Shown in pieces: positions 4,423 through 23,902 of a stretch of 23,902 nt of DNA (positions are counted from its first letter, which is position 1; every line of letters begins with the position of its first letter). Both the position numbers and the translations under genes were made by a program. The stretch spans positions 542-24,443 of the forward strand of contig JAAXJP010000081.1 of assembly GCA_012269805.1 (NCBI GenBank), in the 5' to 3' direction. The notes under the pieces were generated by a model that did no database searches, was not told where the DNA came from, and worked only from the letters and a program-made list of their open reading frames with translations. This DNA comes from Rubrivirga sp. Its GTDB lineage: Bacteria; Bacteroidota; Rhodothermia; Rhodothermales; Rubricoccaceae.

Positions 4423-4444
4423 GGGGTCACAGAGGGTGGACCGG

Positions 4445-4452: not shown

Positions 4453-4527
4453 GACGGGCCCCGTTTTCCACGTGGTGGATAACCCGTGGACACCGGCCAC
4501 GCGGGGCGGCCACGCGGCTCGCTCCTG

Positions 4528-4547
4528 CCGCCTCGGCGCCGAGGCGG
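4528..4547. repeat. Palindrome family copy A: perfect 20-bp inverted repeat
   Basis: CCGCCTCGGC followed directly by its reverse complement GCCGAGGCGG. It lies between ettA and the TerB-like gene, 39 bp after the stop of the latter. Identical to the copy at 19720-19739. Confidence 0.85.
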
Positions 4548-4586
4548 GCACAGCCGGGCGAGTCAGGTCGGAGGCCGGGCCCCCGA

Positions 4587-4991
4587 CTACGAGCCGACGG
4601 CGCTCCCGAGGTGCTCGGCCTCGTCGACGAGCGCCTGGTGGCGGCGGGCCCAGTCGAGCGCGGCCTCGAACGTCCCCGCGTCGACCTGGAGGCCCGCGGC
4701 TACGGACCGGACGGCCCGGATCTCGCTCGGGTGGAGTTGGCCGTCGGCGTAGGCCATCAGAAGGAGGTCGAGCAGGACGACCACGCGCGACCGCTCGGTC
4801 CCGAACAGGAGGTTCAGGTCGCCGACGCCGCTCGGGGCCGACGCCGTCTCGGTGCCCACGCCGGCCTCGACATAGAGCCGGTCGAGCCGCTCGACCTCCT
4901 GGATCGCGAGCCGGTTGTCGGCGTCGATGACCTGACGGGCCAGGACGAGGAAGGCGCGGCGCTGCTCGGGGCTCAGCTCGTGGACGAACAT
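4587..4991 (-). CDS. TerB-like protein
   Basis: 134 residues, soluble and helical, with no signal peptide. The N-terminal part (FVHELSPEQRRAFLVLARQVIDADNRLAIQE) and the later 'LLLMAYADGQLHPSEIRAVRSVAAGLQVD' each look like the acidic helix pair of the tellurite-resistance TerB fold, in which conserved acidic residues after 'ADG' bind metal. In this family such proteins are found with stress, surface and tellurite systems, but many stand alone with unknown roles, as here. It is divergently arranged with the DsbA-family gene across a 208-bp gap, and a promoter-like TAGCTTGG box lies 19 nt before its start. No other ter gene is nearby, so tellurite resistance should not be assumed. Confidence 0.75.
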   Translation of the reverse strand: MFVHELSPEQRRAFLVLARQVIDADNRLAIQEVERLDRLYVEAGVGTETASAPSGVGDLNLLFGTERSRVVVLLDLLLMAYADGQLHPSEIRAVRSVAAGLQVDAGTFEAALDWARRHQALVDEAEHLGSAVGS

Positions 4992-5010
4992 GGATCGGAA
5001 AGGGTGTCGG

Positions 5011-5018
5011 CCAAGCTA
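5011..5018 (-). promoter_or_regulatory. TAGCTTGG box upstream of the TerB-like gene
   Basis: Seven of eight bases match TAGCTTCG. It lies 19 nt before the ATG on the minus strand, in the divergent gap with the DsbA-family gene. Confidence 0.4.
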
Positions 5019-5199
5019 ACGGGCGGAGGACGCGATCCGCTCCCGATGACGGAATGGTTGCGCCGGTGTCGGCGGCAGAGGGCGCCCGAGGACGCGGCGC
5101 GCCTCGGCCCCTGGGCGGAGGCCCCCGTCGTACGGGTCAGCCGCCGGCCGGAGCTTTTCCAGGGGGCGTCTGTCCATACGCTCCCCCCTCCTCGTCTCC

Positions 5200-5847
5200 A
5201 TGACCCTCGACGTGTTCGCCGACATCGCCTGCCCGTGGTGCTACATCGGGGAGGCCCACCTCGCCGAGGCGCTCCGCCAACGACCCGGGCTCGGCGTCGA
5301 ACGCCGCTGGCGGCCGTTCCAGCTCCAACCCGACCTCCCGCCGGAGGGCCAGGACCGTGCCTTCTTCCACCGCAAGTTCGGGGGGCCGGAGCGGACCGAG
5401 GCCGCCTTCGCCCACGTCACGGAGGCGGGCGAGCGGGCCGGCATCCGGTTCGACTTCGCGAAGCTGGCCGGGGCGCCCAACACGCTCGACGCCCACCGCC
5501 TCGTGCTCCTCGCGGGGGAGTACGACCGGACGTGGGAGACCGTCGAGGCCCTGTTCGAGGGCTACTTCGCCGACGGCCGCGATCTAGGCGACGCCGAGGA
5601 CCTCGTCGCGATCGCCGAACACGCCGGCCTCCCGGGCGCCGACGTTCGCGCGCTCCTCGGCGACGACCGCTACGCCGACGACGTCCGCCGGAGCCAGACG
5701 GTCGCGCAGCGAGCCGGGATCGGCGGCGTCCCGCTGTACCTGTTCGGCGACCGGTTCGCGCTGTCGGGCGCCCAGCCCGTCGAGGCGTTCCTCCAGGCGC
5801 TCGACCGGGCCGCCGAGGCGGGCGTGTCGGACGGGTCCGACGCCTGA
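5200..5847 (+). CDS. DsbA-family oxidoreductase, FrnE-like
   Basis: 215 residues of the thioredoxin-fold DsbA/2-hydroxychromene-2-carboxylate isomerase group. The active-site pair CPWC is at residues 11-14 directly after the first beta strand (LDVFADIACPWC), and the cis-proline loop GVPLYLF has Pro178. Between them lies the all-helical insert usual for the group. 'RWRPFQLQPDLPPEG' and 'NTLDAHRL' are typical of the FrnE subfamily. There is no signal peptide, so it should act in the cytoplasm as a thiol-disulfide oxidoreductase or isomerase, possibly in oxidative-stress defence as known for FrnE of Deinococcus. The MscS gene follows on the same strand after 60 bp, but that gene has its own promoter-like box. 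Confidence 0.9.
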   Translation: MTLDVFADIACPWCYIGEAHLAEALRQRPGLGVERRWRPFQLQPDLPPEGQDRAFFHRKFGGPERTEAAFAHVTEAGERAGIRFDFAKLAGAPNTLDAHRLVLLAGEYDRTWETVEALFEGYFADGRDLGDAEDLVAIAEHAGLPGADVRALLGDDRYADDVRRSQTVAQRAGIGGVPLYLFGDRFALSGAQPVEAFLQALDRAAEAGVSDGSDA

Positions 5848-5879
5848 CGGACGGCGCGAACCGCACGCGGGGCGGGCCG

Positions 5880-5887
5880 TAGCTACC
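5880..5887 (+). promoter_or_regulatory. TAGCTACC box upstream of the MscS gene
   Basis: TAGCTACC, sharing TAGCT with the recurring TAGCTTCG box, lies 20 nt before the MscS ATG. It suggests a separate promoter for this gene within the 60-bp gap after the DsbA-family gene. Confidence 0.35.
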
Positions 5888-5907
5888 CCCCGCACAGACC
5901 GCGCCGC

Positions 5908-6882
5908 ATGCAGACCGATACGACCGTCGTCGCCGCCGACACGACTGCCCAATCCGTGGGCGCCGCCGCCAGCGGCGCGCTCGTGACCCTCCGCGAGTGG
6001 GTCGACGGGTTCTTCGAGCTTCTCCCGAACCTCGTCCTCGCGGCCCTCATCGTGATCGCGGCCGCGTTCGTGGCCCGCCTCGTCCGGAGCGTCGTGTCGA
6101 GCGTGCTCCACCGCGCGGCCGACCGGGCGCCCCAGACGAAGAACGTCGTCGAGCTGCTGGCGACGATCGTCTACATCGCCGTGCTCGCGGTCGGGACGTT
6201 CATCGCGCTCACCGTCATCGGGCTAGACGGCGCCGTGACGACGCTCCTCGCCGGGGCCGGCGTCGTCGGGCTGGCCCTCGGCTTCGCGTTCCAGGACATC
6301 GCCTCGAACTTTATCGCGGGCATCCTGATGGCCATTCGCAACCCGTTCCTCGTGGGCGAGATCATCGAGACGAACGGGTTCACGGGGACCGTCCGCGAGA
6401 TCTCGCTCCGGTCGACGGTCCTCGACACGTTCCAGGGCCAGAAGGTCATCCTCCCCAACGCGAAGGTCTTCGGCGACCCGATCGTGAACTACTCCGCGCG
6501 CGGTGAGCGGCGCGTCGACCTCGCCTGCGGCGTCGGCTACGGCGACGACCTCGGGCACGCCCAGCAGGTGGCCGTCGCGGCCGTCGAGGGGCTGGCGGCG
6601 CGGAAGGACGGCAAGCCTGTCCAGCTCTACTACACCGAGTTCGGCGACTCGTCGATCAACTTCGTCGTCCGCTTCTGGGTCGACTTTATGCGCCAGACCG
6701 ACTTCCTGGAGGCCCAGAGCGAAGCCATCAAGGCCGTCAAGGCCGCGTTCGACCGCGACGGCGTGACGATCCCGTTCCCGATCCGGACCCTCGACTTCGA
6801 CCCCAACGGCGGCGTCGACCTCCGGGCCGTGCTCCAAAGCGGCGGCGCCCTCTCGACCGACGGCGCGGACGGACCCGCGTAG
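5908..6882 (+). CDS. Small-conductance mechanosensitive channel, MscS family
   Basis: 324 residues, near the size of E. coli MscS, acting in the inner membrane as a safety valve that opens under osmotic downshock. A hydrophilic N-terminus of about 38 residues leads to TM1 (about 40-60), TM2 (about 82-104) and the pore helix TM3 (about 109-143). TM3 carries the family's glycine/alanine-rich signature AGAGVVGLALGFAFQDIASNFIAG followed by the beta-domain start NPFLVGEIIETNGFTGTVREI. The 'ILPNAKVFGDPIVNYSARGERRVDL' segment is the usual start of the cytoplasmic cage. The last 20 residues after 'DFDPNGGVDLRAVL' look disordered. A palindrome (copy B) follows 8 bp after the stop and may end the transcript. 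Confidence 0.95.
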   Translation: MQTDTTVVAADTTAQSVGAAASGALVTLREWVDGFFELLPNLVLAALIVIAAAFVARLVRSVVSSVLHRAADRAPQTKNVVELLATIVYIAVLAVGTFIALTVIGLDGAVTTLLAGAGVVGLALGFAFQDIASNFIAGILMAIRNPFLVGEIIETNGFTGTVREISLRSTVLDTFQGQKVILPNAKVFGDPIVNYSARGERRVDLACGVGYGDDLGHAQQVAVAAVEGLAARKDGKPVQLYYTEFGDSSINFVVRFWVDFMRQTDFLEAQSEAIKAVKAAFDRDGVTIPFPIRTLDFDPNGGVDLRAVLQSGGALSTDGADGPA

Positions 6883-6890
6883 CTCGCCCC

Positions 6891-6906
6891 GCCTCGGCAC
6901 CGAGGC
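6891..6906. repeat. Palindrome family copy B, after the MscS gene
   Basis: GCCTCGG, spacer CA, CCGAGGC: a 7-bp perfect stem 8 bp after the MscS stop codon, in the convergent gap with the 91-residue orphan. Likely hairpin at the 3' end of the transcript. Confidence 0.8.
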
Positions 6907-6936
6907 CGACCCACCCAGACGGCTCGTTGCTCGCGA

Positions 6937-7001
6937 CGTCGCTGCGCTCAGCGGCTGCGCCGTCTAGCGAGCCAGGTGCTGCGCGGCGTCGCTGCGCTCA
7001 G
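6937..7001. repeat. 15-bp direct repeat, two copies 50 bp apart
   Basis: CGTCGCTGCGCTCAG occurs at 6937-6951 and 6987-7001. The second copy covers the stop codon of the orphan gene on the minus strand. The DNA between is rich in related fragments (GCGGCTGCGCCG, GTGCTGCGCGGCG) and carries GGCTCG/CGAGCC inverted ends at 6921-6926 and 6968-6973. It looks like a degenerate intergenic repeat of the kind common in GC-rich genomes. Confidence 0.6.
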
Positions 7002-7273
7002 TTCCAAGGGAGCTCGACGACGACGTCCTCGTGGAGCGCCGCGCGGACGTAGCCCAGGAGCGCGTGCCGGCCCGGCCCGTAGCGGTAGATCCGGTCGACG
7101 TCCGTCTTCATGCGGACGCGGCACACCGGCAGCCCCGGAATGACGACCACGCCGTCGACGAGCGCGCGGCCCGCCTCGTCCTCGGTCGTCGTGATGCGCA
7201 CGAACTCGTTGGTCGGGTCCGAGAACCCGAGCCCGTTGTAGTCGGGCGGCAGCGGGGGATTCGAGAGGGCCAT
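6998..7273 (-). CDS. Hypothetical 91-residue protein
   Basis: I do not recognise the family. With the ATG at 7271-7273 the protein is 91 residues, without signal peptide or membrane segment. It starts MALSNPPLPPDYNGLGFSDPTNEFV and continues with likely beta strands (RALVDGVVVIPGLPVCRVRM, HEDVVVELPWN); one cysteine is present. The composition looks like a real soluble protein rather than a GC-rich shadow frame: normal hydrophobic spacing and third positions mostly G or C. A longer frame from 7318 exists, but its extra 15 residues look like non-coding DNA. A small hairpin (GGGGGA/TCCCCC, 7284-7298) lies just upstream of the start and could affect translation. It is convergent with the MscS gene and 123 bp downstream of the ArsA-like gene. 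Confidence 0.6.
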   Translation of the reverse strand: MALSNPPLPPDYNGLGFSDPTNEFVRITTTEDEAGRALVDGVVVIPGLPVCRVRMKTDVDRIYRYGPGRHALLGYVRAALHEDVVVELPWN

Positions 7274-7396
7274 GACGGAGTGTGGGGGAGCCTCCCCCCT
7301 ATCGGCCCATCCGACCACGTCGTTAAATGGGCGGATCGGAAACCTACGGTCACGCGGCAGACCACCAATCAGGGGATGCCACGAGATGCGCCTCCC

Positions 7397-8563
7397 CTAC
7401 GGCTCCGGCACGAACCGGGCGCAGAGCCAGCCCCCCTCGACGCGCGCCTCCGCGAGCCGGTAGTAGGCCAGGAACGCCGGGAGCGTCACGTTCCGCCGCT
7501 GGTTCGCGATCTGGACCACGAGGTCGTCGCCGAACTGCTCGGCCTCGACGTCGCCGGGGTCGGCCCCGGGCACGCGGAGCGCGACGGTGTAGACGTCGCC
7601 CTCGTTCTCGACCTTGTACGACGGCTCGACGTGGTAGACGGCGGCCGGGTCGCGGTCGCGGTACATCCCCTCCGCGATCTGCTCCAGCAGCTCGAGCCCG
7701 AACACCTCGCGCCCGAGGTGCGGGACGGTCAGCACCGGCAGCGGGTGGAACGACCGGTGGATCTCGTCGAGGTAGCCGGCCTGGGCCTCGACGTACCGCG
7801 CCATGACGCCTCCGGCCTCGTCCTCCGGGATCACGCGGTTGACGACGGCCGCGTCGACGCCGTAGCCGTAGAGCTGGAGGTAGGTGTAGGCCCGCTTGGC
7901 CTCCTGGATCACCATCCGCTCGGGGTTCATCACGAGGCGGGCGCTCGTGACCTCGGGGTCCTGGAGGACCTCCTGCACGTCGCCGAGCTTGCCGAAGAGC
8001 CGGTCGAGCTCGTCGTACCCCTTGTCGAGCGGGACGCCCGTGGTCTTGCGGACAGCGAAGCCGACCGTCTTGATGGCCGTCTTCTGCAGGGGGAAGGCTT
8101 TCTGGAGCCACCACTGCGTGACCTGCGGGAGCGTCAGGAGCGTGAGCGTCTCGCCCGTCGGCGCGGCGTCGAGCACGATCACGTCGTAGTCGCCGGAGCG
8201 GACGAACTCGTCGAGCCACAAGAGCGCGCTCCCCTCGCCCATCCCCGGCAGCGCCGCCAGCTCCTCGGCCGCGATGGCGTCGGCGCCCTGGAAGCGGAGG
8301 ACGGCGCGGACGAGCTCGCGCATGTTGCCCCAGTACTTCCGCATGGAGTAGTACAGGTCGACCTCCATGGCGTCGAGCTTCGGCGCGAGCGCCTGGGGCT
8401 CGGGGCCGAGCGGCCGGTCGACGGCGTCGGCGAGCGAGTGGGCGGGGTCGGTCGAGAGGACGAGCGTGCGCTGGCCGCGCTGGGCGCAGGCGAGGGCCGT
8501 GGCCGCGGCGCACGTCGTCTTCCCGACGCCGCCCTTGCCGGTGAAGAGTAAGACTCGGGACAA
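7397..8563 (-). CDS. ArsA/GET3-family ATPase with C-terminal HSP20-like domain
   Basis: 388 residues. The N-terminus MSRVLLFTGKGGVGKTT holds the deviant Walker A motif GKGGVGKTT (9-17). Switch I is DPAHS (39-43) and switch II is DAAPTGE (132-138), as in ArsA, the arsenite-pump ATPase, and GET3/TRC40, which handles tail-anchored membrane proteins. From about residue 313 a beta-rich part (YKVENEGDVYTVALRVPGADPGDV...GDDLVVQI) matches the HSP20-like C-terminal domain of bacterial ArsA homologues known from Chlorobiota and Cyanobacteria. The start is TTG: the protein begins right at the P-loop strand as in homologues and no ATG is near. No arsenic genes (arsB, arsR, arsC) are in the window, so a chaperone-like role is more likely than arsenite transport, but this is inference. 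Confidence 0.9.
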   Translation of the reverse strand: MSRVLLFTGKGGVGKTTCAAATALACAQRGQRTLVLSTDPAHSLADAVDRPLGPEPQALAPKLDAMEVDLYYSMRKYWGNMRELVRAVLRFQGADAIAAEELAALPGMGEGSALLWLDEFVRSGDYDVIVLDAAPTGETLTLLTLPQVTQWWLQKAFPLQKTAIKTVGFAVRKTTGVPLDKGYDELDRLFGKLGDVQEVLQDPEVTSARLVMNPERMVIQEAKRAYTYLQLYGYGVDAAVVNRVIPEDEAGGVMARYVEAQAGYLDEIHRSFHPLPVLTVPHLGREVFGLELLEQIAEGMYRDRDPAAVYHVEPSYKVENEGDVYTVALRVPGADPGDVEAEQFGDDLVVQIANQRRNVTLPAFLAYYRLAEARVEGGWLCARFVPEP

Positions 8564-8638
8564 ACGAACGGGAGGGGATGAGGAGTCGTGAAGGGCGGGG
8601 GCGTGGCCGCCGTTCCGGCTTTCGGAGACTTCACCTCC

Positions 8639-8661
8639 CCCGCCTCGGCACCCGAGGCGGG
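8639..8661. repeat. Palindrome family copy C, after the PBP gene
   Basis: CCCGCCTCGG (8639-8648), loop CAC, CCGAGGCGGG (8652-8661): a perfect 10-bp stem beginning 1 bp after the PBP stop codon, on the way to the ArsA-like gene. Strong RNA hairpin but no T-run behind it. Confidence 0.85.
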
Positions 8662-8662
8662 C

Positions 8663-11287
8663 CTACCCGTCGCCGTCGCGGCGTCGGGCCTCCTCGATCA
8701 TCTCCTCGGCCGTCATGCCGCCGCGGTTGTTCCGGTTGCGGACCGTCGGCTCGGGCGGCGGGGCGTCGCGCGGGATCACGACGGGCTCGCCGGACTGGCC
8801 ACCCCGCGGGGCCGGCGGCGGCGGAGGCGTCCGGGGCGTCGGCGCGCGGCGCGGCTCCGAACGGGCGTCGTCGGTCCGCCGGGCGTCGTCGGTCCGGCGG
8901 CCGTCGCCGTCCCAGCCGATCCGGCGCGTAGCCGGCGGCGGCTGGCGGAGGTCGGGGCGGTCCTCAAGGGGCCGCTCGACGTTGGGGACGTCGACCTCGA
9001 CGGGGTCGTAGGGGTCCTCGCCGTAGGCCCACTCGTAGTCCTCGGCCGTGAGGTCGGCCACGTCGGCCTCGGAGACGAGGAGCGAGTCGCCGTCCGGGTC
9101 GAAGTCGAGGGCCGCGTACTGGCCCGGCGGTGGCGGGAAGGCCACGTCTGGGAGGCGGTCCTGGACGCGCAGGAGGAAGTCGCCGACGACCGGGAGCGCC
9201 GTCCGCGAGCCCTCGCCGGTCGCCTTCGAGCGGAACGTCACGCGCTGGTCGTTGAACCCGACCCACGCGCCGACGGCCAGCCCCGGCCGCATGGCGATAA
9301 ACCACCCGTCGGCGTACTCCTGGGTGGTGCCGGTCTTGCCGGCGAGGTCGCCGGTCACGCCCATCTCGCGGAGCGGGCGCCCCGTCCCGCGGTCGACGAC
9401 GCCGCGGAGCATGTCGAGGAGGTTGCGGGCGTCGCGCCGGGTGAGCGCCTGCCGGCCCGCGCCGCCGAACGTGTCGAGGACCGTCCCCGACGCCGTCTCG
9501 ACGCGCGTGATGAGCTTGGGTTCGCGGCGGAGCCCGTCGTTGGCGATCGTGGCGTAGGCCGAGACCATCTCGAGCAGCGTGACCGGGCTCGTGCCGAGAC
9601 CGATCGACGGGACCACGTCGAGGTCGCTCTCGACGCCCATCCGCTGGGCCACGAGCGCCACACGGTGCGGCCCGATCTCTTGGGTGAGCCGGGCCGTGGC
9701 GGCGTTCTTGGAGTAGGCGAGCGCGTCGGCGAGCGTGCCCTCCGACGAGCCGCCGGCCGGCGTCCACGTCGTCCCGTCGTCGAGCTCGCCCTGGGCGGCG
9801 CCGCCGTCGATCTCGTCCTCGGGCCCGTAGCCGCGCTGGAGCGCGCCGGCGAACACGAACGCCTTGAACGTCGAGCCCGGCTGGCGGAGCGCGACGCCCG
9901 CGTGGTCGTACTCGTCGACCCGGAAATCGCGGCTCCCGACGTAGGCGCGGACGGCGCCGGTCTCGGGCTGGATCGCCACGAGCCCCGCCTCGACGCGGCG
10001 GACCGACTGCGCGACGGAGTCCCACAGCGCGGCGTCGGCGCGGACCTCGGCGAGCGCCTCGGCCTCGCTCATCCCGCCGTCGCCGGGCGGGGGGGGGGCC
10101 GGGGGGGGGGGGGCGGCGGCGGCGAGCGCCGCGCGCGGGACGCCGCGGCCCCACTGGGCGTCGGCGGTCCGCTGGAGGCGGGCGGCGCGCTCGGCGACGG
10201 CCGCCTCGGCCTCCCGCTGCATCGTCAGGTCGAGCGTCGTGCGGACGACGAGCCCGTCGCGGTCGACGTCGTAGCCCCGCGCCAGCGCCCAGTCCTCCAG
10301 CTCGCGGCGGACGGCGGCCGTGAAGTGCGGCGCCGCGCTGTAGGTCGAGGGCTGCGGCTGGAGGTCGATGTCGAGGCCCTCGGCCTGGTACGCCTCGGCC
10401 TCGGCCGGGGCGAGGACGCCCTGCTCGGCCATCAGCCGGAGCACGAGGTTCCGGCGCGCCGCCGCCGCCTCGGGGTGGCGCACCGGGTTGAACTGGTTCG
10501 GCCCCTTCAGCATCGCCACGAGCATGGCCGACTGTGGGACCGTGAGGTCGGGCGCGTGCGAGGCGAAGTAGGTCCGTGCGGCGAGCTCGACGCCGTGGGC
10601 GTTGTAGAGGAACGGGACCGTGTTGAGGTAGGCCTCGAGGATCTCGCGCTTCGTGTGGTCGCGCTCGATGGCGCGCGCCGCCAGCGCCTCCTTCGTCTTC
10701 CGCTCGATCGTCCCCGCGTTGCCGATCTCGTCGGGGAACAGGTTCCGCGCGAGCTGCTGCGTGATGGTCGAGCCGCCCTGGCGGTCGCCCCGGAGCGTGT
10801 TCCAGATGGCCCCGACGGTCCGCTGGTAGTCGACGCCGCCGTGGCCGTAGAAGTCGCGGTCCTCGGTCGCGATGAGCGCGTCGACGAGGTGCGTTGGGAT
10901 CGAGTCGAGGGGGACCCACTCGCGGAACTCGGGCTCAAACTGCGTGATCCGCTCGCCGCGAACGTCGACGACGACGGTCGGCTGCGACTGCGTGGCGCGG
11001 GCGAGCGCGTAGGCGTCCGGCGTCTCGGGCAGGAGCGACCACGCGTAGACAGCGAAGGCCACCGCGCCGAGCACCAATCCGCCCACGGCGATCCCAAACG
11101 GAACGCCGACAGCCACGAGCAGCCGCCGACCCCACGACGCCTCATCGTCGGTGACAGCCCGCCAGTAGCGCTTGAACGGGTTCCGCGTGGGCGCTTCGAC
11201 GGGCGCCGGAGGCGACCACGAGCGGGCGGGACGGGCGATGTTGGGCGGCGAGGCCACAGGCGTGGTGGGGGGACCAGGGACGGACAT
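8663..11287 (-). CDS. Class A penicillin-binding protein (PBP1A type)
   Basis: 874 residues. It polymerises and cross-links peptidoglycan on the outer face of the inner membrane. A proline-rich cytoplasmic N-terminus of about 50 residues is followed by one membrane helix (about 55-82). The glycosyltransferase domain (GT51) has EDRDF with catalytic Glu142 and QGGSTITQQLARN from residue 170. The transpeptidase domain has the serine motif STFK (Ser472), SKN (526-528) and KTGT (651-654). Between the domains the linker AAAAPPPPAPPPP (about 388-400) is encoded by two long homopolymer tracts. The C-terminal 130 residues are disordered, Pro/Arg/Asp-rich, and contain a duplicated TDDARR hexapeptide. 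I chose the ATG at 11285-11287; the frame stays open far upstream, but that part is only GC-rich shadow coding opposite or beside the VWA gene. Confidence 0.93.
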   Translation of the reverse strand: MSVPGPPTTPVASPPNIARPARSWSPPAPVEAPTRNPFKRYWRAVTDDEASWGRRLLVAVGVPFGIAVGGLVLGAVAFAVYAWSLLPETPDAYALARATQSQPTVVVDVRGERITQFEPEFREWVPLDSIPTHLVDALIATEDRDFYGHGGVDYQRTVGAIWNTLRGDRQGGSTITQQLARNLFPDEIGNAGTIERKTKEALAARAIERDHTKREILEAYLNTVPFLYNAHGVELAARTYFASHAPDLTVPQSAMLVAMLKGPNQFNPVRHPEAAAARRNLVLRLMAEQGVLAPAEAEAYQAEGLDIDLQPQPSTYSAAPHFTAAVRRELEDWALARGYDVDRDGLVVRTTLDLTMQREAEAAVAERAARLQRTADAQWGRGVPRAALAAAAPPPPAPPPPGDGGMSEAEALAEVRADAALWDSVAQSVRRVEAGLVAIQPETGAVRAYVGSRDFRVDEYDHAGVALRQPGSTFKAFVFAGALQRGYGPEDEIDGGAAQGELDDGTTWTPAGGSSEGTLADALAYSKNAATARLTQEIGPHRVALVAQRMGVESDLDVVPSIGLGTSPVTLLEMVSAYATIANDGLRREPKLITRVETASGTVLDTFGGAGRQALTRRDARNLLDMLRGVVDRGTGRPLREMGVTGDLAGKTGTTQEYADGWFIAMRPGLAVGAWVGFNDQRVTFRSKATGEGSRTALPVVGDFLLRVQDRLPDVAFPPPPGQYAALDFDPDGDSLLVSEADVADLTAEDYEWAYGEDPYDPVEVDVPNVERPLEDRPDLRQPPPATRRIGWDGDGRRTDDARRTDDARSEPRRAPTPRTPPPPPAPRGGQSGEPVVIPRDAPPPEPTVRNRNNRGGMTAEEMIEEARRRDGDG
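8863..8898. repeat. 18-bp tandem duplication in the PBP tail
   Basis: GGGCGTCGTCGGTCCGCC (8863-8880) is repeated at 8881-8898 with 17 of 18 bases the same. It encodes two copies of the hexapeptide TDDARR in the disordered C-terminal tail of the PBP, and is in frame, so copy number can change without breaking the protein. Confidence 0.75.
10089..10113. repeat. G10 and G13 homopolymer tracts inside the PBP gene
   Basis: On the plus strand ten G (10089-10098), CC, then thirteen G (10101-10113); on the coding strand these are C13 and C10. They encode the proline linker between the glycosyltransferase and transpeptidase domains, near residues 392-400. Tracts of this length slip readily during replication, so this is a possible phase-variable site, or a place for sequencing error. 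Confidence 0.8.
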
Positions 11288-11392
11288 GAACGCGCCAGAT
11301 CCAAACGCGTGCCATCGGCCGCTGGCGTGCGCCGTTCGGCGCCGCCACGCCCCGGCTGACGCCTGTGTTGGCCGTCTCCCCCTCCAGCGCGC

Positions 11393-11415
11393 CACCGAGG
11401 CGGGCCGCCTCGGTG
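11393..11415. repeat. Palindrome family copy D, arms in reversed order
   Basis: CACCGAGGCGG (11393-11403), one G, then CCGCCTCGGTG (11405-11415): a perfect 11-bp inverted repeat. Compared with the other copies the arms are swapped (CCGAGG first). It lies 57 bp after the stop of the VWA gene and about 105 bp upstream of the PBP start. Confidence 0.8.
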
Positions 11416-11472
11416 ACGTCGCGAGGGGGCAGGTATACAAGCGCCCCGACGGCGTACTGCGGCTGGGCGTCG

Positions 11473-13449: not shown

Positions 13450-13641
13450 GACAAGTCGGGCGAGTGGGAGGAGGCAACGTCCTGATCGTGCGAGACGTAC
13501 CTCGGCGAGCATCGTGCACCATCCAGACACCCGTGGGCCGCGTCCGTCGCCCGATTCGTCACATCGGCCCCGCTGGCGGTCCAGCGCGGCGCTCGCGGCA
13601 ACCGTCCGCGGGCCCCCTCCCGGCCCTCGTCCTGAGAGCCG

Positions 13642-14541: not shown

Positions 14542-14565
14542 GGGGGCGTGTCGGGGGGAGACGCC

Positions 14566-14573
14566 CCAAACTA
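14566..14573 (-). promoter_or_regulatory. TAGTTTGG box upstream of ftsX
   Basis: On the minus strand, 24 nt before the ftsX ATG. It is a variant of the recurring TAGCTTCG box and close to the Bacteroidota -7 consensus TAnnTTTG. Confidence 0.4.
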
Positions 14574-14606
14574 GCGCGCGCGGCTCGTCCCTCCCACCAT
14601 GCCGTG

Positions 14607-14632
14607 CCGCCTCGACGTCGTCGCCGAGGCGG
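14607..14632. repeat. Palindrome family copy E
   Basis: CCGCCTCG (14607-14614) and CGAGGCGG (14625-14632) form an 8-bp stem around a 10-nt loop. It lies beyond the atpDC terminator and 65 bp upstream of the ftsX start. Confidence 0.7.
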
Positions 14633-14660
14633 GCGGCCTCAAACGGCCGCGGCCCGCGGG

Positions 14661-14703
14661 GGGCACAAAAAGAGAGCGCCCGACGGAAACCCGTCGGACG
14701 CTC
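14661..14703 (-). terminator. Intrinsic terminator of the atpD-atpC operon
   Basis: On the minus strand: GAGCG and CGCTC (outer 5 bp), one mismatch, CCGACGG and CCGTCGG (inner 7 bp) with a 4-nt GTTT loop, at 14674-14703. It is followed at once by TCTCTTTTTG (14673-14664). A stable GC stem plus T-run about 150 bp after the atpC stop is a textbook Rho-independent terminator. Confidence 0.85.
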
Positions 14704-14855
14704 GGTCGGGGAGCTCGCCCTGGAGGGCGGGGCTGGGCGTGCTCAACCCGATTCGTTGGCCGGTGTATCGGCCGGTGTCGGAGTGCCAAGGTACGCCGGC
14801 TTCGGGGGCGCGGGAAGAACCCTACGTGAAGGCTCCGGCCGTTAGCCCCCCGCCG

Positions 14856-15266: not shown

Positions 15267-15282
15267 GTCTGGGGGAGTCGGC

Positions 15283-15308
15283 CCGCCTCGGGCCCGTGCC
15301 CGAGGCGG
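15283..15308. repeat. Palindrome family copy F, between atpD and atpC
   Basis: CCGCCTCGGGC (15283-15293), loop CCGT, GCCCGAGGCGG (15298-15308): a perfect 11-bp stem 16 bp after the atpD stop and 16 bp before the atpC start. Sitting inside an operon, it may cause partial termination or protect the atpD message from 3' decay, which would set the beta:epsilon ratio (3:1 in the enzyme). Confidence 0.85.
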
Positions 15309-15324
15309 ACGCGGTCGGGGTGTC

Positions 15325-18131
<2,807 letters not shown>

Positions 18132-18133
18132 CC

Positions 18134-18161
18134 CCGCCCGCCCCGGCGCCGAGGCGGGCGG
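18134..18161. repeat. Palindrome family copy G, between convergent genes
   Basis: CCGCCCGCC (18134-18142) and GGCGGGCGG (18153-18161) enclose the self-complementary CGGCGCCG (18144-18151), with one C/A mismatch. It is 2 bp after the stop of the exported protein gene and 15 bp after that of glyS, so it could end both transcripts. Confidence 0.75.
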
Positions 18162-18176
18162 AGCCGGCGCGGAGGG

Positions 18177-19613
18177 CTACGGCTGCGGCGCCCAGCCCTC
18201 GACGCGGTCCTCGATGTAGCGGCGGACGTTCTCGGCCGGGATCCGGTCCTGCTCCATCGAGTCGCGGTCGCGGACCGTGACGGTCCCGTCCTCCAGCGTG
18301 TCGCCGTCGACCGTGACGCAGAACGGCGTGCCGATCTCATCCTGCCGGCGGTACCGCCGCCCCACGGCCCCGCTCTCGTCGTACATCACGTTGAACTGGC
18401 GGCGGAGGTCGGCCTCGATCTCGTGGGCCCGCTCCGGCATCCCGTCCTTCTTGACGAGCGGGAACACGGCGGCCGTAAACGGCGCCAGCGCCGGGTGGAA
18501 CTTGAGGACCGTCCGGCTGTCGCCGTCGACCTCCTCCTCGCGGTAGGCGTCGCAGAGCGTCATCAGGATCGTCCGGTCGAGGCCGACGGACGTCTCGACG
18601 ACGTACGGGATGTAGCGCTCGCGCGTGGCCTGGTCGAAGTACTCGAGCTTCTTGCCGGAGTACTCCTGGTGGCGGCTGAGGTCGTAGTCGGTCCGGCTGT
18701 GGATCCCCTCGATCTCGTTCCAGCCGAAGGGGAACTCGTACTGGACGTCCTTGGCCGCGTCGGCGTAGTGGGCCAGCTTCTCGTGGTCGTGCCACCGCAG
18801 CTTCTCGGTCCGGATGCCGTTGTTGGCGTGCCACTGCATCCGCTTCTCGGCCCACGCCTCGTAGGCCTCCATCTGGCGGCCCGGCGCGACGAAGTACTGC
18901 ATCTCCATCTGCTCGAACTCGCGCATCCGGAAGATGAACTGGCGCGCGACGATCTCATTCCGGAAGGCCTTGCCGATCTGGGCGATCCCGAACGGGACCT
19001 GCTGACGGGCCGTCTCGGCGACGTCCTTGAAGTGGACGAAGATGCCCTGGGCCGTCTCTGGGCGGAGGTAGATCGTGTTGGCCTCCTCGGCGACGGCGCC
19101 CGTGGCCGTCTCGAACATGAGGTTGAACTGGCGGACCTCCGTCCAGTCGAACGCGCCGGAGTCGGGGCTCCGGATCTCCTCGTCTTGGATGATCTGCCCG
19201 AGCGCGGCCGGCATGTTCTCGGCGTGGAGGGCCTCGACGAACCGGGCCTGGAGCGCCTCGGCCTCGTCGGCCTTCCCCTTTTTCTCGAGCTTGGCGATGT
19301 GGCCCTCGACAAGCTGGTCGGCGCGGTAGCGCCGCTTCGAGGCCTTGTCGTCGATGAGCGGGTCGGCGAAGGCGTCGACGTGGCCCGACGCCTTCCAGAC
19401 GGTCGGGTGCATGAGGATCGCCGCGTCGATGCCGACGACGTTGTCGTGCTCGCGGACCATCGCGTTCCACCACCGCTCGCGGACGTTCCGCTTGAGCTCG
19501 ACGCCGAGCGGGCCGTAGTCGTAGACGGCGCCGAGCCCGCCGTAGATCTCGGACGACGGGAACAGGAAGCCGCGGCGCTTCGAGAGGGAGACGATCGTGT
19601 CGAGGTCGGCCAT
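18177..19613 (-). CDS. glyS: Glycine--tRNA ligase, alpha2 dimer type
   Basis: 478 residues; charges tRNA-Gly with glycine in the cytoplasm. This is the single-chain class II type also found in archaea, eukaryotes, Thermus and Bacteroidota, not the alpha2beta2 GlyQ/GlyS type of E. coli. The N-terminus MADLDTIVSLSKRRGFLFPSSEIYGGLGAVYDYGPLGVELKRNVRERWW is diagnostic. Motif 2 is FRNEIVARQFIFRMREFEQMEMQYF and motif 3 is SVGLDRTILMTLCDAY. The C-terminal anticodon-binding domain (about 370-475) begins near KFHPALAPFTAAVFPLVKKDG. The ATG at 19611-19613 is preferred over a frame extended to 19766 because the extra residues look like non-coding DNA. It is divergent from the metalloprotease gene. Confidence 0.97.
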   Translation of the reverse strand: MADLDTIVSLSKRRGFLFPSSEIYGGLGAVYDYGPLGVELKRNVRERWWNAMVREHDNVVGIDAAILMHPTVWKASGHVDAFADPLIDDKASKRRYRADQLVEGHIAKLEKKGKADEAEALQARFVEALHAENMPAALGQIIQDEEIRSPDSGAFDWTEVRQFNLMFETATGAVAEEANTIYLRPETAQGIFVHFKDVAETARQQVPFGIAQIGKAFRNEIVARQFIFRMREFEQMEMQYFVAPGRQMEAYEAWAEKRMQWHANNGIRTEKLRWHDHEKLAHYADAAKDVQYEFPFGWNEIEGIHSRTDYDLSRHQEYSGKKLEYFDQATRERYIPYVVETSVGLDRTILMTLCDAYREEEVDGDSRTVLKFHPALAPFTAAVFPLVKKDGMPERAHEIEADLRRQFNVMYDESGAVGRRYRRQDEIGTPFCVTVDGDTLEDGTVTVRDRDSMEQDRIPAENVRRYIEDRVEGWAPQP

Positions 19614-19719
19614 GCGTGTGCCCGGGCGGGCGCGGATGCGAGGGGAGCGCGCAAGATCGCGGTCCGGACCGGCCCAGACGCGAACGCCGCTCGAAAAGCG
19701 ATCGACGCCCTCCCCTCTT

Positions 19720-19739
19720 CCGCCTCGGCGCCGAGGCGG
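19720..19739. repeat. Palindrome family copy H, between divergent genes
   Basis: CCGCCTCGGC plus GCCGAGGCGG, perfect and identical to copy A. It lies in the divergent gap between the glyS and metalloprotease starts, ending 11 bp before the TAGCTTCG box, that is, over the region where a -35 element would be. This is the one complete copy that cannot be a 3'-end hairpin of a neighbouring gene. Confidence 0.85.
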
Positions 19740-19750
19740 GCCGGGCCGGC

Positions 19751-19758
19751 TAGCTTCG
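19751..19758 (+). promoter_or_regulatory. TAGCTTCG box upstream of the metalloprotease gene
   Basis: Exact TAGCTTCG 19 nt before the metalloprotease ATG; same octamer as before ettA and the phosphomutase. Palindrome copy H directly precedes it. Confidence 0.45.
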
Positions 19759-19777
19759 GGGGTCACCCCGCGCCGCC

Positions 19778-22237
19778 ATGATCCGCCCCGTCGCCCTCGT
19801 TCTTCTGGCCGCCCTCGCTGGCTGCACCGCTACGGCCCCGACCGCGCCCGCCTCGGGCCCCGCGCCGAGCGAGCCGAACGGCCTCCCGACCATCGAGGCC
19901 AAGACGGCCGGCCTGGAACAGCACGACGGGCAGTGGCCGGTGTGGTGGGACGCCGCCGACGGCACGGTCTGGCTCGAGGTCCCGGAGCTCGACGCCGACC
20001 TCCTGTACGTCGTCTCGCTCGCGGCCGGGCTCGGGTCGAACGACGTCGGGCTCGACCGGAGCCAGCTCGGCGGCGAGCGTGTGGTCCGGTTCGAGCGCGT
20101 CGGGCGGCGGGTGCTCCTCGTCCAGCCGAACCTCCGCTTCCGCGCGACCTCCGACAACCCGGCCGAGCGGCTCGCGGTCGAGGACGCCTTCGCGCCGTCG
20201 GTGGTGTGGGGCTTCGACGTGGCCGCCGAGACGGACGGGCGCGTGCTCCTCGACGTGACCGACTTCGTGCTCCGCGACGCGCACGGGGTCGCCGAGACGC
20301 TCCGCCGGACGGGCCAGGGCGCGTTCTCGCTCGACAAGTCTCGGAGCGCGCCCGTCCCGTCGGCGCTGAAGGCGTTCCCGCAGAACACCGAGGTCGAGGC
20401 GCGGCTGACGTTCGCCAGCGCACAGCCCGGCCGCTACGTCCGCGACGTGGCCGCCGACCCGAGCGCGGTGACGGTCCGCGTGCGGCACTCGTTCGTGGCG
20501 CTGCCCGACCACGGCTACACGCCGCGCGCCTTCCACCCGGCCGCCGGCTACTTCCCGATGAGCTACGCCGACTACGCCGTCCCCATCGGCGAGGACATCC
20601 AGCGCCGGGTGATCACGCGGCACCGGCTCCAGTGCGCCGGCCGGCCGGGACCGGACGGGCTGTGCGACCCGGTCGAGCCCATCGTCTACTACCTCGACCC
20701 CGGGACGCCGGAGCCCGTCCGCAGCGCGCTCCTCGACGGCGCCCGCTGGTGGGCCGACGCCTTCACGGCCGCCGGCTTCCGCGACGCCTACCGCGTCGAG
20801 GTCCGCCCCGACTCCGTCGACCCGCTCGACGTCCGGTACAACACGATCCAGTGGGTCCACCGGGCCACGCGCGGGTGGAGCTACGGCGCGAGCGTGGTCG
20901 ACCCACGGACGGGCGAGATCCTGAAGGGCCACGTCTCGCTCGGCTCGCTCCGCGTCCGCCAGGACTACCTCATCGCCGAGGGCCTCCTCGCCCCGTACAC
21001 CGGCGCGAACGCCGACGGCTTCGCGTCCGAGGCCGACGACCCGATGCTCCAGCTCGCGCTCGCGCGGCTCCGACAGCTCTCGGCCCACGAGGTCGGCCAC
21101 ACGATCGGGCTGGCCCACAACTTCGCCGGCTCGACGCAGGGCCGCTCGACGGTCATGGACTACCCGGCGCCGCTGGCTCTGCCCGCTGAGGGGAACGCGC
21201 CAGACCTGACGGAGGCCTACGCCGTCGGCGTGGGCGAGTGGGACGTCCAGGCCGTCCGCTACGGGTACGCCCCGAGCGACGCCGAGGCGGAGCGGGTGCT
21301 GGCCGAGAACCGCGACCGCGGCCTCCGCTACGTCACCGACGCCGACGCCCGGCCGGCCGGCGCCGCGACGCCGACCGGCGCGCTCTGGGACAACGGCGCC
21401 GACGCCGTCCAGGCGCTCGAGCTCGAGATGGCCGTCCGCCGCGACGCGCTCGACCGGTTCTCGGAGGCCGTGATCCGCGACGGGCGGCCGCTCGCCACGC
21501 TCGAAGAAGCGCTCGTCCCGCTCTACCTCCGCCACCGCTACCAGGTCGACGCGACGTCGCACCTCGTCGGCGGCGTGGCCTACGGCTATACCAGCCGCGG
21601 CGAGGGCGCCGAGCCGCCCATGCCGGTCGACGGCGACACGCAGCGGGCGGCCATCGACGCGCTCCTGATGACGGTGACGCCGGAGGCGCTGGCGCTGCCC
21701 GAGGCGGCCCGACGCATCCCGCCGCGCCCGCCGGGCTACTCCGACGGCCGCGAGCTGTTCGACGGGCGGACCGGGCTGACGTTCGACCCCGTCGCCCCGG
21801 CCGAGACGGCGGCCCGGCTCACGTTCGGCTACCTCTTCGACGCCGACCGCGCCGCGCGCCTGACGTACCAGCACGACCTCGACCCGTCGCTTCCGAGCTA
21901 CAAGGACCTCCTCGACCGGACCGGCGCGATGGTCTGGATGGCGGACGTACCGGACGCCCACCACGAGGAGATCCGCCGGACCGCGCTCAGCGCCTGGGTC
22001 GACGTGCTGATGGAGCTCGCCGCCGACGCCGACGCCGCGCCGACCGTCCGCGCCATGACGGAACTCATGCTCGAGGAACTGGCGACGTCCAACGGCCCCG
22101 GCGGCATCAGCGAGGACGCCGCGTTCATCCGCTGGGTCGGCCGCCGCATCGAGGCCTTCCTCGACCGCGACTACGACGAGGACGCCGAGCCGCAGCCGGT
22201 CACGATCCCGCCGGGCTCGCCCATCGGCCAGTGGTAG
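19778..22237 (+). CDS. Zinc-dependent metalloprotease lipoprotein (DUF5117/DUF4953 type)
   Basis: 819 residues. The start MIRPVALVLLAALAGC gives a lipoprotein signal with Cys16, so the mature protein is anchored in a membrane facing the periplasm or outside. The middle carries the metzincin-like zinc site HEVGHTIGLAH (His437, Glu438, His441, His447), followed by NFAGS and STVMDYPAP, a likely Met-turn. Before it lie the DUF5118/DUF5117-type regions (LPTIEAKTAGLEQHDGQWPVWWDAADGTVWLEVPELDADLLYVVSLAAGLGSNDVGLDRSQLG, and HSFVALPDHGYTPRAFHPAAGYFPMSYADYAVPIGED); after it is the long helical DUF4953-type region. This family is widespread in Bacteroidota; its substrates are unknown. Its last codons overlap the start of the acetyltransferase gene. 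Confidence 0.93.
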   Translation: MIRPVALVLLAALAGCTATAPTAPASGPAPSEPNGLPTIEAKTAGLEQHDGQWPVWWDAADGTVWLEVPELDADLLYVVSLAAGLGSNDVGLDRSQLGGERVVRFERVGRRVLLVQPNLRFRATSDNPAERLAVEDAFAPSVVWGFDVAAETDGRVLLDVTDFVLRDAHGVAETLRRTGQGAFSLDKSRSAPVPSALKAFPQNTEVEARLTFASAQPGRYVRDVAADPSAVTVRVRHSFVALPDHGYTPRAFHPAAGYFPMSYADYAVPIGEDIQRRVITRHRLQCAGRPGPDGLCDPVEPIVYYLDPGTPEPVRSALLDGARWWADAFTAAGFRDAYRVEVRPDSVDPLDVRYNTIQWVHRATRGWSYGASVVDPRTGEILKGHVSLGSLRVRQDYLIAEGLLAPYTGANADGFASEADDPMLQLALARLRQLSAHEVGHTIGLAHNFAGSTQGRSTVMDYPAPLALPAEGNAPDLTEAYAVGVGEWDVQAVRYGYAPSDAEAERVLAENRDRGLRYVTDADARPAGAATPTGALWDNGADAVQALELEMAVRRDALDRFSEAVIRDGRPLATLEEALVPLYLRHRYQVDATSHLVGGVAYGYTSRGEGAEPPMPVDGDTQRAAIDALLMTVTPEALALPEAARRIPPRPPGYSDGRELFDGRTGLTFDPVAPAETAARLTFGYLFDADRAARLTYQHDLDPSLPSYKDLLDRTGAMVWMADVPDAHHEEIRRTALSAWVDVLMELAADADAAPTVRAMTELMLEELATSNGPGGISEDAAFIRWVGRRIEAFLDRDYDEDAEPQPVTIPPGSPIGQW

Positions 22238-22668
22238 ACGGCATCGAGATCCGGATCCTCGGTCCCGGCGACCTCGGCGTGCTCGCCGACGTCGAGCCGG
22301 GCACGTTCGACGGGCCGGTCGCGCCGCGCTGGGCCGAGGCCGCGCTCGACGCCCCTGGTCAGCACCTCGCGGTCGCGCTCGACGGGACGCGCGTGGTCGG
22401 CTTCGCGATGGGGATCCACTACGCGGAGCCCGACAAGGCGCCGGTCCTCTACGTCGACGAGGTCGGGACGGCCGACGCGTACCGGCGGCGTGGGGTCGCG
22501 ACGGCCCTCATGCGCGCGCTCCTCGACCACGCTCGCACGCTCGGCTGCACGCGGGTGTGGCTGATGACGGAGGACGAGAACGAGCCGGCGCGCGCGTTCT
22601 ACGCCGCCATCGGCGGGGTCGAAGAGCAGCGGCCGGTCTACATCACGTTCGACCCGGACGGGCCCTAG
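22231..22668 (+). CDS. GNAT-family N-acetyltransferase
   Basis: 145 residues; transfers an acetyl group from acetyl-CoA to an amine. The fold is recognisable: strand 1 IEIRILGPGD, strands HLAVALDGTRVVGFAMGIHY and VLYVDEVGTADAYRRRGVATALMRALLDHARTLGC, with the acetyl-CoA pyrophosphate loop RRRGVA (85-90), then VWLMTEDENEPARAFYAAIGG. The pattern with 'PDK.P.L...EVG' resembles the AAC(3)-I aminoglycoside group, but the actual substrate cannot be told, and resistance should not be assumed. The start is GTG at 22231-22233, inside the end of the metalloprotease gene (overlap of 7 bp, GTGGTAG), which suggests translational coupling; no ATG lies near the N-terminus. Confidence 0.85.
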   Translation: MVDGIEIRILGPGDLGVLADVEPGTFDGPVAPRWAEAALDAPGQHLAVALDGTRVVGFAMGIHYAEPDKAPVLYVDEVGTADAYRRRGVATALMRALLDHARTLGCTRVWLMTEDENEPARAFYAAIGGVEEQRPVYITFDPDGP

Positions 22669-22671
22669 CCC

Positions 22672-22707
22672 TCCGCCTCGGTGTCCCTGCGGGCCGGCCG
22701 AGGCGGA
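22672..22707. repeat. Palindrome family copy I, between convergent genes
   Basis: TCCGCCTCGG (22672-22681) and CCGAGGCGGA (22698-22707) form a perfect 10-bp stem with a 16-nt loop. It starts 3 bp after the acetyltransferase stop and ends 8 bp from the stop of the membrane acetyltransferase on the other strand; a likely shared 3'-end hairpin. Confidence 0.8.
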
Positions 22708-22715
22708 CGGGGCCG

Positions 22716-23902
22716 CTACACCTTCCACACGATGCCGCGGCGGTAGAGCGCGAGCAGGGCGAGGAACCACCCGCCGATCCACACGAGCGCGTACAGCAGC
22801 GACGCCACCTCCGGCGGTCCGAGCGGCGCGAACACCGTCTGGAAGATCCACGCCTGGAGCGACGCCTCGCCGACGGAGATCCGCGCGAGCGTCTGCGCGA
22901 GAAGGCTGCTCCCCACGAACACGAGCAGCGCGTTGACGCCGTAGACCACGAACGGCCGCGTCCACGCGCGCCACCCGCGGACGTCGGCGGCCCAGTAGCA
23001 CGCGCCGAGCACGCTGAACGCGAGGCCGCCCGTGAGCAGGACGTACGAGCTCGTCCACAGCGACTTGTTGATCGGGAAGACCCAGCCCCACGCGCTCCCG
23101 ACGGCCGTCAGCGCGAGGCCGAGCGCCATCATCCGCGCCGCCGTCTCGACGGGCGCGACGTCGTTCCGGCGGACCATCCGCCCGGCCGCGAGGCCGAGGA
23201 GCGTCGTGACGACCGCCGGCAGCGTGCTCACCAGCCCCTCCGGGTCCCAGAGCTTGTCGGCCCCCGCCCAGAGGTGCTGGCTCCCGAGGACGAGCCGGTC
23301 GACGTAGGCCGGCAGCGTCTCGGCCGCCACGTCGAGCTGGCCCGCGCCGATGCCTGGGACGGGCACCCACTCCAGCGCCGCCCAGTACCCGAGGAGGACC
23401 GCGGCGCCCACCCCCACCTGCGTCCGCGCCGACGTGTACAGAAAGAGGAGCGACGCGGCGAGGTAGCACAGCGCGATCCGCTGGAGGACGCCCATCACGC
23501 GGAAGTCGCTCAGGTCGAGCGGCACGCCCTCGGCCATGCGCCAGACGCGCGAGAAGAGCGCCAGCCCGACGCCGATCGCGAACAGCACGGCCGCGCGCTT
23601 CACCGTCTTCCGCACGAGGCCGCCGCGGTCGTCGCCGCGCTCGAGCCGCTTCGAGAACGCCAGCGGGATCGCCACGCCGACGATGAACAGGAAGAACGGG
23701 AAGACGAGGTCGGTCGGCGTCCACCCGTGCCAGGCGGCGTGGCGGAGCGGCGGGAAGATGGCGCCCCACGTCCCCGGGTTGTTGACGAGGATCATGCCCA
23801 TGATCGTCAGCCCGCGGAACACGTCGAGCGAGACGAGGCGCCCGCGCGGGGCACCGGCCAGGGGGCTGGCTCCCTCGGCCTCGGCGCCGAGGTGGGCGGG
23901 GT
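22716..23902 (-). CDS. Membrane acyltransferase of the HGSNAT/DUF5009 family (NagX-like), probably cut by window edge
   Basis: At least 368 residues with about ten membrane helices. The N-terminal part RLVSLDVFRGLTIMGMILVNNPGTWGAIFPPLRHAAWHGWTPTDLVFPFFLFIVG is the hallmark of the heparan-alpha-glucosaminide N-acetyltransferase family. The His of RHAAW corresponds to the active-site histidine of human HGSNAT, which moves acetyl from acetyl-CoA across the membrane to a sugar amine. In bacteria these proteins often go with amino-sugar use. A GTG at 23820-23822 would start the protein at 'FRGLT', but the conserved RLVSLD lies before it and the frame is open, without ATG or GTG, to the window edge, so the true start is probably just outside. 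The last helices end GGWFLALLALYRRGIVWKV. Confidence 0.88.
   Translation of the reverse strand, partial: PAHLGAEAEGASPLAGAPRGRLVSLDVFRGLTIMGMILVNNPGTWGAIFPPLRHAAWHGWTPTDLVFPFFLFIVGVAIPLAFSKRLERGDDRGGLVRKTVKRAAVLFAIGVGLALFSRVWRMAEGVPLDLSDFRVMGVLQRIALCYLAASLLFLYTSARTQVGVGAAVLLGYWAALEWVPVPGIGAGQLDVAAETLPAYVDRLVLGSQHLWAGADKLWDPEGLVSTLPAVVTTLLGLAAGRMVRRNDVAPVETAARMMALGLALTAVGSAWGWVFPINKSLWTSSYVLLTGGLAFSVLGACYWAADVRGWRAWTRPFVVYGVNALLVFVGSSLLAQTLARISVGEASLQAWIFQTVFAPLGPPEVASLLYALVWIGGWFLALLALYRRGIVWKV
23878..23893. repeat. Palindrome family copy J, shorter
   Basis: CCTCGGC plus GCCGAGG (23879-23892), a perfect 14-bp inverted repeat with a possible G-T pair outside. It lies near the window edge, 56 bp before the GTG of the membrane acetyltransferase and possibly inside its true coding sequence. 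Confidence 0.65.

Follow-up and report, generated by a model that had tools for sequence, protein, structure and literature searches.

The ten palindromes found in a 23,902-nt stretch of the Rubrivirga sp. genome (assembly GCA_012269805.1, contig JAAXJP010000081.1, positions 542 to 24,443; hereafter the window) are, by our sequence analysis, head-to-head pairs of a dispersed word, probably a self word of the DNA-uptake type. This word would exist in at least three dialects, with its inverted pairs employed as hairpins at the 3′ ends of genes. The word, its excess inside genes, its pairing and location, its dialects and the accompanying machinery genes are all direct observations.

We compared nine genomes of the little-known marine family Rubricoccaceae: the window's genome (G000; 3.9 Mb assembly, 81% complete), three others of the same genus (G399, G400 and G401) and five of other genera, namely Rubricoccus marinus (G231), G398 from the same genus as R. 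marinus, G395 from another genus, G396 and G397. Two proteins of the window agree with this placement: of 80 ProS homologue loci retained from a collection of named genomes, in which this genome or its nearest kin may be missing, the best belong to Rhodothermales and to unplaced Bacteroidota, and the nearest MscS relatives of named origin come from Rubrivirga sp., Rubricoccaceae and Rubricoccus marinus. Genome-wide counts were controlled with the reversed pattern or word. Counted as GCCTCGG-N0..20-CCGAGGC, the hairpin occurs 302 times in G000 (9 in the control), far above chance; within the window, GCCTCGG has 51 matches, whereas 100 shuffles gave 19.8 on average (sd 4.5). The same genus yielded 595 hairpins in G399 (control 9), 322 in G400 (12) and 17 in G401 (6), and the five genomes of other genera hold 1 to 24. 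Across a sample of 395 genomes from the phylum, all genomes other than G000 showed 0 to 17.

The stem proved to be half of a larger pattern, the non-palindromic 9-mer CCGCCTCGG, which is dispersed through the genome. Its copies number 2,523 in G000 (304 for the reversed word), 4,084 in G399 (459) and 3,300 in G400 (241); counts elsewhere were 494 in G401 (327), 491 in G231 (308), 338 in G395 (111), 633 in G398 (442), 105 in G396 (90) and 43 in G397 (56). R. marinus carries 14,176 copies of a different word, GCCTCTGGCG (control 61; 7,049 and 7,127 on the two strands), which is present 8 to 99 times in the other eight family genomes. Two stretches of its large contig (8.2 kb) contain 13 copies in called genes and 26 outside, and two loci on smaller contigs (6.6 kb) contain 3. 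Derived from counts and genome sizes, word density ranges from 0.65 per kb in G000 to 3.2 per kb in G231, in keeping with the roughly one copy per kb expected of DNA uptake sequences (DUS). Strand counts over stretches of 400-420 kb, taken irrespective of the replication origin, were 467/456 in G401, 254/213 in G400 and 246/231 in G399.

Words inside genes were scored against synonymous-codon shuffles within each gene, using gene calls from a custom codon-model script instead of a standard gene finder and excluding genes with N or shorter than 150 nt. The stretches of G399, G400 and G401 were picked by contig number and position, independently of matches, and three very small G400 pieces were excluded. 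The G000 sample comprised 58 pieces, of which 39 were kept after removal of 18 all-N pieces and one at 37% GC (the first ranking of hairpin stems used all 58); since these pieces were partly picked from contigs with known hairpin matches, the stem ranking and the gap, pair and 3′-end densities of G000 are biased high. Contig C36 of G000, at 37% GC inside a 73% GC assembly, is probable contamination.

By this measure, no 9-mer exceeds expectation more than CCGCCTCGG in the genes of G400 (302 observed, 105 expected), G399 (224/90) and G000 (177/79), and the leaders in G401 are the top 8-mer CCGCCAGC (1,035/310) and CCGCCAGCG (509/132). The excess is spread across several reading frames and, in G401, G400 and G399, includes rare ones (two G401 frames, expected to contain 1.6 and 1.8 copies, hold 11 and 18), which makes a protein motif an unlikely cause. 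Orientation inside genes favours the template strand, as for CCGCCAGC in G401 (660 versus 375). A bias of orientation in the reading frame is known for uptake sequences too, according to the available part of PMC2346458.

Dialects and turnover of the word

G401, nearly without the GCCTCGG hairpin, uses another word, CCGCTGGCGG, in the same way; we refer to the CCGCCTCGG/GCCTCGG word as dialect A and to the G401 word as dialect B. When intergenic hairpins were ranked by 8-mer stem, CCGCCTCG/CGCCTCGG came first in G399, G400 and G000 and CGCTGGCG/GCTGGCGG led in G401, so that in all four sampled genomes the dialect word is the most frequent stem of intergenic hairpins (setting aside poly-C/G runs in G000). 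The pattern CCGCTGG-N0..20-CCAGCGG occurs 171 times in G401 (control 18) versus 7 to 14 times in the three other genomes of the genus (18 to 26 in their controls), with 33 occurrences in G398 (control 9) and 15 in G231 (12). The corresponding pattern of R. marinus, GCCTCTGG-N0..20-CCAGAGGC, reaches 1,234 in that genome (control 2) and 0 to 4 in the other 113 genomes of the order; its commonest form among the places listed is the 18-bp palindrome GCCTCTGGCGCCAGAGGC. Hairpin counts shift along with the dialect between genomes. Three words, and thus three dialects, were found across five family genomes, the other four being without a clear dialect among the words tested, and by eye the three words can be aligned on a common GGCG end.

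The initial annotation had described compensated changes in the outer pairs of the stems. Across 103 intergenic hairpins from three genomes, Watson-Crick pairing at ten outer positions stayed within the range of column shuffles (at position -3, 50 of 103 were paired against a shuffle mean of 52.9), and this lack of covariation indicates conservation of the word and not of the structure. The elements turn over, as follows from comparisons of orthologous gaps and from the hairpin between atpD and atpC of the window (15283..15308), since no inverted word pair was found in the same gap of G400, G401, G398 or G231. Among 29 gaps shared by pairs of dialect A samples, an exact hairpin was present in both members in 2, in one in 3 and in neither in 24. 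Replacement in place rests on three cases, all judged by eye. The gap behind 17031-18131/proS has an exact CCGCCTCGG pair in G399, a pair with one mismatch in G000 and a hairpin with its own GCTGGCG word in G401; in two of the 27 gaps shared between a dialect A genome and G401 (G000_22_4/G401_0_6 and G000_37_1/G401_8_6), the stem is of type A in G000 and of type B in G401, with an imperfect stem on one of the two sides in either gap.

A further observation concerns an island of G400 (G400:C3:1090300-1094100), in which 3 of the genome's 4 GCCTCTGG-type palindromes lie within 3.4 kb and 9 of its 74 R. marinus words within 3.8 kb. The island encodes ketoacyl-ACP synthase III-type, sodium-solute symporter and AMP-binding proteins. 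Judging from its sequence, it is likely to be DNA from a Rubricoccus-like donor, imported across genera.

Hairpins at the ends of genes

All ten palindromes of the window were recovered at the places initially annotated, with unequal quality: both 7-nt arms are exact in six (at 4530, 6891, 8642, 15285, 19722 and 22675), three have a single arm mismatch (14607, 18134 and 23878), and one has the opposite arrangement. New gene calls reproduced the placement of eight copies behind a stop codon, at no more than 16 bp from it in five cases (6891, 8639, 15283, 18134 and 22672). Of the remaining two, the copy at 19720 lies in a divergent gap, and that at 23878 is either upstream of the last gene or within its beginning. 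The copies, listed without strand, are as follows.

4528..4547: exact inverted pair CCGCCTCGG-CG-CCGAGGCGG; in the gap 4423-4586, which has a minus-strand gene on either side, and some 40 nt past the stop of 4587-4991.
6891..6906: exact inverted pair, spacer CA; convergent gap, 8 nt past the stop of the MscS-type gene 5908-6882.
8639..8661: exact inverted pair, spacer CAC; 1 nt past the stop of a minus-strand penicillin-binding-protein gene ending at 8663.
11393..11415: pair in the opposite arrangement, CCGAGGC..GCCTCGG; gap 11075-11472.
14607..14632: imperfect inverted pair, one arm GCCTCGA; gap 14542-14855, more than 200 nt downstream of atpC.
15283..15308: exact inverted pair, spacer of 8; 58-nt gap between atpD and atpC.
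18134..18161: imperfect inverted pair with one mismatch; convergent gap.
19720..19739: exact CCGCCTCGG-CG-CCGAGGCGG; divergent gap upstream of proS, also found upstream of proS in G399.
22672..22707: exact inverted pair, spacer of 16; convergent gap, with the two stops 3 nt and 8 nt away.
23878..23893: inverted pair, mismatched once at an end; close to where the window ends, either upstream of the gene that ends at 22716 or within its beginning (ORF 22716-23822 or 22716-23900).

Beyond the window's own copies, intergenic head-to-head (+-) pairs with at most 20 nt between the words exceed expectation in all four sampled genomes (34 versus 2.8 in G399, 31 versus 1.7 in G400, 36 versus 2.9 in G000 and 38 versus 5.8 in G401). 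They outnumber pairs of the opposite order (-+) by 35:6 in G399, 36:3 in G000 and, for CGCTGGC, 38:8 in G401. Using the half-words GCCTCGG (G399, G000), CGCTGGC (G401) and CGCCTCG (G400), we found a hairpin in 24.3, 11.0 and 6.8% of convergent, codirectional and divergent gaps in G399; the corresponding values are 39.4, 13.5 and 3.6% in G000, 22.2, 7.2 and 3.0% in G401, and 24.1, 3.0 and 4.8% in G400. Convergent gaps are therefore the richest in hairpins in all four genomes and divergent gaps the poorest in three.

Within 60 nt of a stop codon, GCCTCGG begins 8 nt past the stop in 31 of 100 hairpins of G399, G400 and G000, 4 nt past it in 13 and 12 nt past it in 8; perhaps the stop codon forms part of an extended motif. 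The spacing between GCCTCGG and CCGAGGC is quantised in the same genomes, such that 2, 8, 11, 16 and 20 nt account for 58, 11, 8, 18 and 4 of the 103 intergenic pairs at most 20 nt apart, or 99 of 103 together. Among spacers of one length the sequence varies, and long spacers often fold with an inner stem.

Among 3′ ends facing gaps of at least 40 bp, 28 of 191 in G399, 29 of 289 in G400, 34 of 159 in G000 and 38 of 349 in G401 have a hairpin (10 to 21%). By a custom scan, U-tract terminators are rare at the same ends (4, 5, 2 and 7, respectively; 1 to 2%). Hairpins and U-tracts were not significantly associated in G399, G400 or G000, and in G401 U-tracts were found at 3 of 38 hairpin ends versus 4 of 311 others (p = 0.03). 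The initially noted absence of a T-run holds for codirectional gaps, with a mean of 0.84 to 1.0 T among the 14 nt that follow the stem. Of the features of an intrinsic terminator, the hairpins thus show the location, behind stops and in convergent gaps, and lack the U-tract.

No Rfam family matched anywhere in the window at gathering scores. On the minus strand, between atpC and the next gene, positions 14640-14790 form a block that includes a U-tract terminator of the classic kind (GAGCGTCCGACGG..CCGTCGGGCGCTCTCTTTTTG) and is conserved in G000, G400 and G401 and partly in G398 and G231. This block, likewise without an Rfam match, is a candidate small RNA.

Weighing the explanations

Four options had been raised at the outset for the palindromes: paired uptake sequences, a lineage-specific terminator, a protein-binding site and a REP-like (repetitive extragenic palindromic) element. 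Uptake sequences fit best, with the half-word in genes at uptake-sequence density, a change of word between lineages and +- pairs at gene ends. We favour uptake-type self words because the described signature of DUS and uptake signal sequences (USS) combines the same three traits: a word scattered through the genome and particular to a lineage, its recruitment as inverted pairs where genes end, and a change of dialect. Uptake specificity, its receptor and a 3′-end function of the hairpins are what we infer. Word copies in and between genes would label DNA as the cell's own for uptake by a type-IV-pilus/ComEC machine, and they would be maintained by recurrent uptake and recombination. Other dialects in relatives (CCGCTGGCGG in G401, GCCTCTGGCG in R. 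marinus) would limit exchange between species. Where two copies come to lie head to head behind a stop, they would form a strong GC-rich hairpin, kept as a terminator or RNA-stability structure without a U-tract.

ComEC-family genes were found in all nine family genomes and PilT-family ATPase matches in eight, above the cut-off in five. A second, weaker ATPase match lies about 4 to 6 kb from PilT in G399, G400 and G401, and the PilT protein of G399 was confirmed.

Several results weigh against uptake words. ComEC and PilT also match 10 and 13 of 14 control genomes (PilT above the cut-off in 5) and are therefore weak evidence; as both families are widespread, their presence shows only that uptake is possible. 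G398, the congener of R. marinus, has no PilT match, nor did any of the words tested stand out in it as a clear dialect, and G395 combines 338 copies of CCGCCTCGG (111 in the control) with 21 hairpins versus 9. In G000 the in-gene excess is limited to three of six frames, making this genome the weakest case for dispersal in coding DNA. Moreover, the 7-mer GCTGGCG/CGCCAGC, a G401 word, ranks first in the genes of G399 (396/203), ahead of GCCTCGG (654/443), and 18th in G000 (307/187), again ahead of GCCTCGG (501/362); GCCTCGG itself ranks 21 in G399 and 71 in G000 among 16,384 7-mers (strand twins counted). The G401 8-mer GCTGGCGG likewise stands at 199/91 in G399 genes. The G401 word is thus enriched in genes of G399 and G000 although its hairpins are nearly absent there; it is possibly a relic of an older dialect, with codon context as the plain alternative. 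The +- bias is weaker for GCTGGCG in G401 (47:23). When scored by script, the 27 gaps shared between a dialect A genome and G401 held an A hairpin alone in 3, a B hairpin alone in 4, both in none and neither in 20. Paired copies also lack the T-tail of the extended motif in Neisseria and Pasteurellaceae, which is a feature of those hairpins and not of uptake itself. Finally, a cross-genome contrast of word excess failed to rank the dialect words first, being confounded by words containing GCCGGC or CTCGAG.

Words with GCCGGC are scarce in the genes of G400 (GCCGGCGC, 48 versus 208 expected) and words with CTCGAG in those of G401 (CCTCGAGG, 8 versus 137 expected). Both probably reflect restriction-site avoidance.

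The main rival to uptake words, which we regard as unlikely, is an iterated word like HIP1 or Chi that serves methylation, recombination, repair or nucleoid organisation and forms hairpins as a side effect or for a secondary use. In its favour are the very large numbers of copies, both in genes and elsewhere, and the G401 word GCTGGCGG, which is one base away from the E. coli Chi site. Our words may differ from Chi and KOPS, which are polar sequences biased to one strand, in being nearly balanced on both strands of the 400-420 kb stretches. Cyanobacterial HIP1 shares the very high copy number, and other iterated words replace it in some lineages; the density in R. marinus is close to, if slightly higher than, the range of 500-2,500 per Mb that the available part of PMC4390886 reports for cyanobacterial iterated octamers. 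HIP1 is, however, an 8-bp palindrome tied to methyltransferases according to the same text, and the dispersed Rubricoccaceae words are non-palindromic and form hairpin pairs at gene ends. The strong head-to-head bias at 3′ ends, described for uptake sequences, is absent from that portion of the HIP1 account.

It is improbable that the elements are nothing but lineage-specific terminators or 3′-end hairpins, acting in termination or in protection of mRNA 3′ ends. The paired copies are compatible with such a role, given their position 8, 4 or 12 nt after stops, their preference for convergent gaps and their presence at 10 to 21% of 3′ ends facing gaps of at least 40 bp against 1 to 2% for U-tract terminators. 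A terminator alone leaves the copies inside genes, in excess on both strands, unexplained, and it agrees poorly with the missing U-tract, the missing outer-pair covariation and the occurrence of copies in divergent gaps and in the atpD-atpC gap. We give still less credence to a site bound by a protein that regulates genes or organises the chromosome, with half-sites at fixed spacings. The quantised spacing of intergenic pairs suits this idea, and an uptake receptor would itself be such a binding protein; coding half-sites (654 GCCTCGG in the G399 sample), however, far outnumber intergenic pairs (35), and the pairs sit at gene ends, not in divergent promoter regions.

REP elements moved by RAYT (Y1 transposase) are intergenic palindromes near stop codons, a location the Rubricoccaceae hairpins share. 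A mobile palindrome of this kind, or one like a miniature inverted-repeat transposable element, could account for hundreds of copies and has one Y1_Tnp gene in G000 in its favour, yet it is very improbable: Y1_Tnp genes do not track the elements (2 in G399, 1 in G401 and none found in G400 with its 322 hairpins), the 2.1-kb locus of the G000 gene contains no word palindrome, equal-length spacers differ in sequence, and the word is enriched in coding DNA too. We rejected a REP/RAYT origin on these grounds.

Known systems and implications

The Rubricoccaceae words resemble the DUS of Neisseriaceae, which the available part of PMC3630211 describes as non-palindromic words of about 10 nt with thousands of copies, occurring in genes and in terminator-associated inverted pairs, with dialects by lineage that share a short common core. 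They differ in the words themselves, in phylum and in GC-rich flanks without a T-tail. The 14,176 copies in R. marinus compare with 4,265, the largest count found in that portion of PMC3630211. Paired uptake signals of Neisseria and Pasteurellaceae are similar in their +- pairs at gene ends, tail-to-tail enrichment in N. meningitidis and words elsewhere too, according to the available part of PMC1852404, and dissimilar in that the words are unrelated and the Rubricoccaceae pairs lack an A/T-rich extension.

Words by which cells recognise their own DNA during uptake have been described in Neisseriaceae and Pasteurellaceae (PMC1939737, available part). Our literature search, with subscription papers outside its scope, found no earlier report of such words for Rubrivirga, Rubricoccus or Bacteroidota among the papers listed, judged largely by title. 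On a narrow balance, we lean towards an independently evolved system of DNA-uptake words in Rubricoccaceae, outside the Proteobacteria, in which words would have been switched within one genus (leaving the G401 word as a relic in the genes of its congeners) and R. marinus would carry 14,176 tagged sites. If true, this would be a third, unrelated case, in Bacteroidota, and would mean that uptake tagging evolves repeatedly. As self tags, the words would then keep species sexually isolated, and a change of dialect would rewrite many 3′-end hairpins. R. marinus is a cultured species, and an extreme copy number in a named species would make word accumulation, dialect switching and terminator recruitment testable. 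To our knowledge, few genetic tools exist for the Rubricoccaceae clade, to whose genetics uptake words could open a route.

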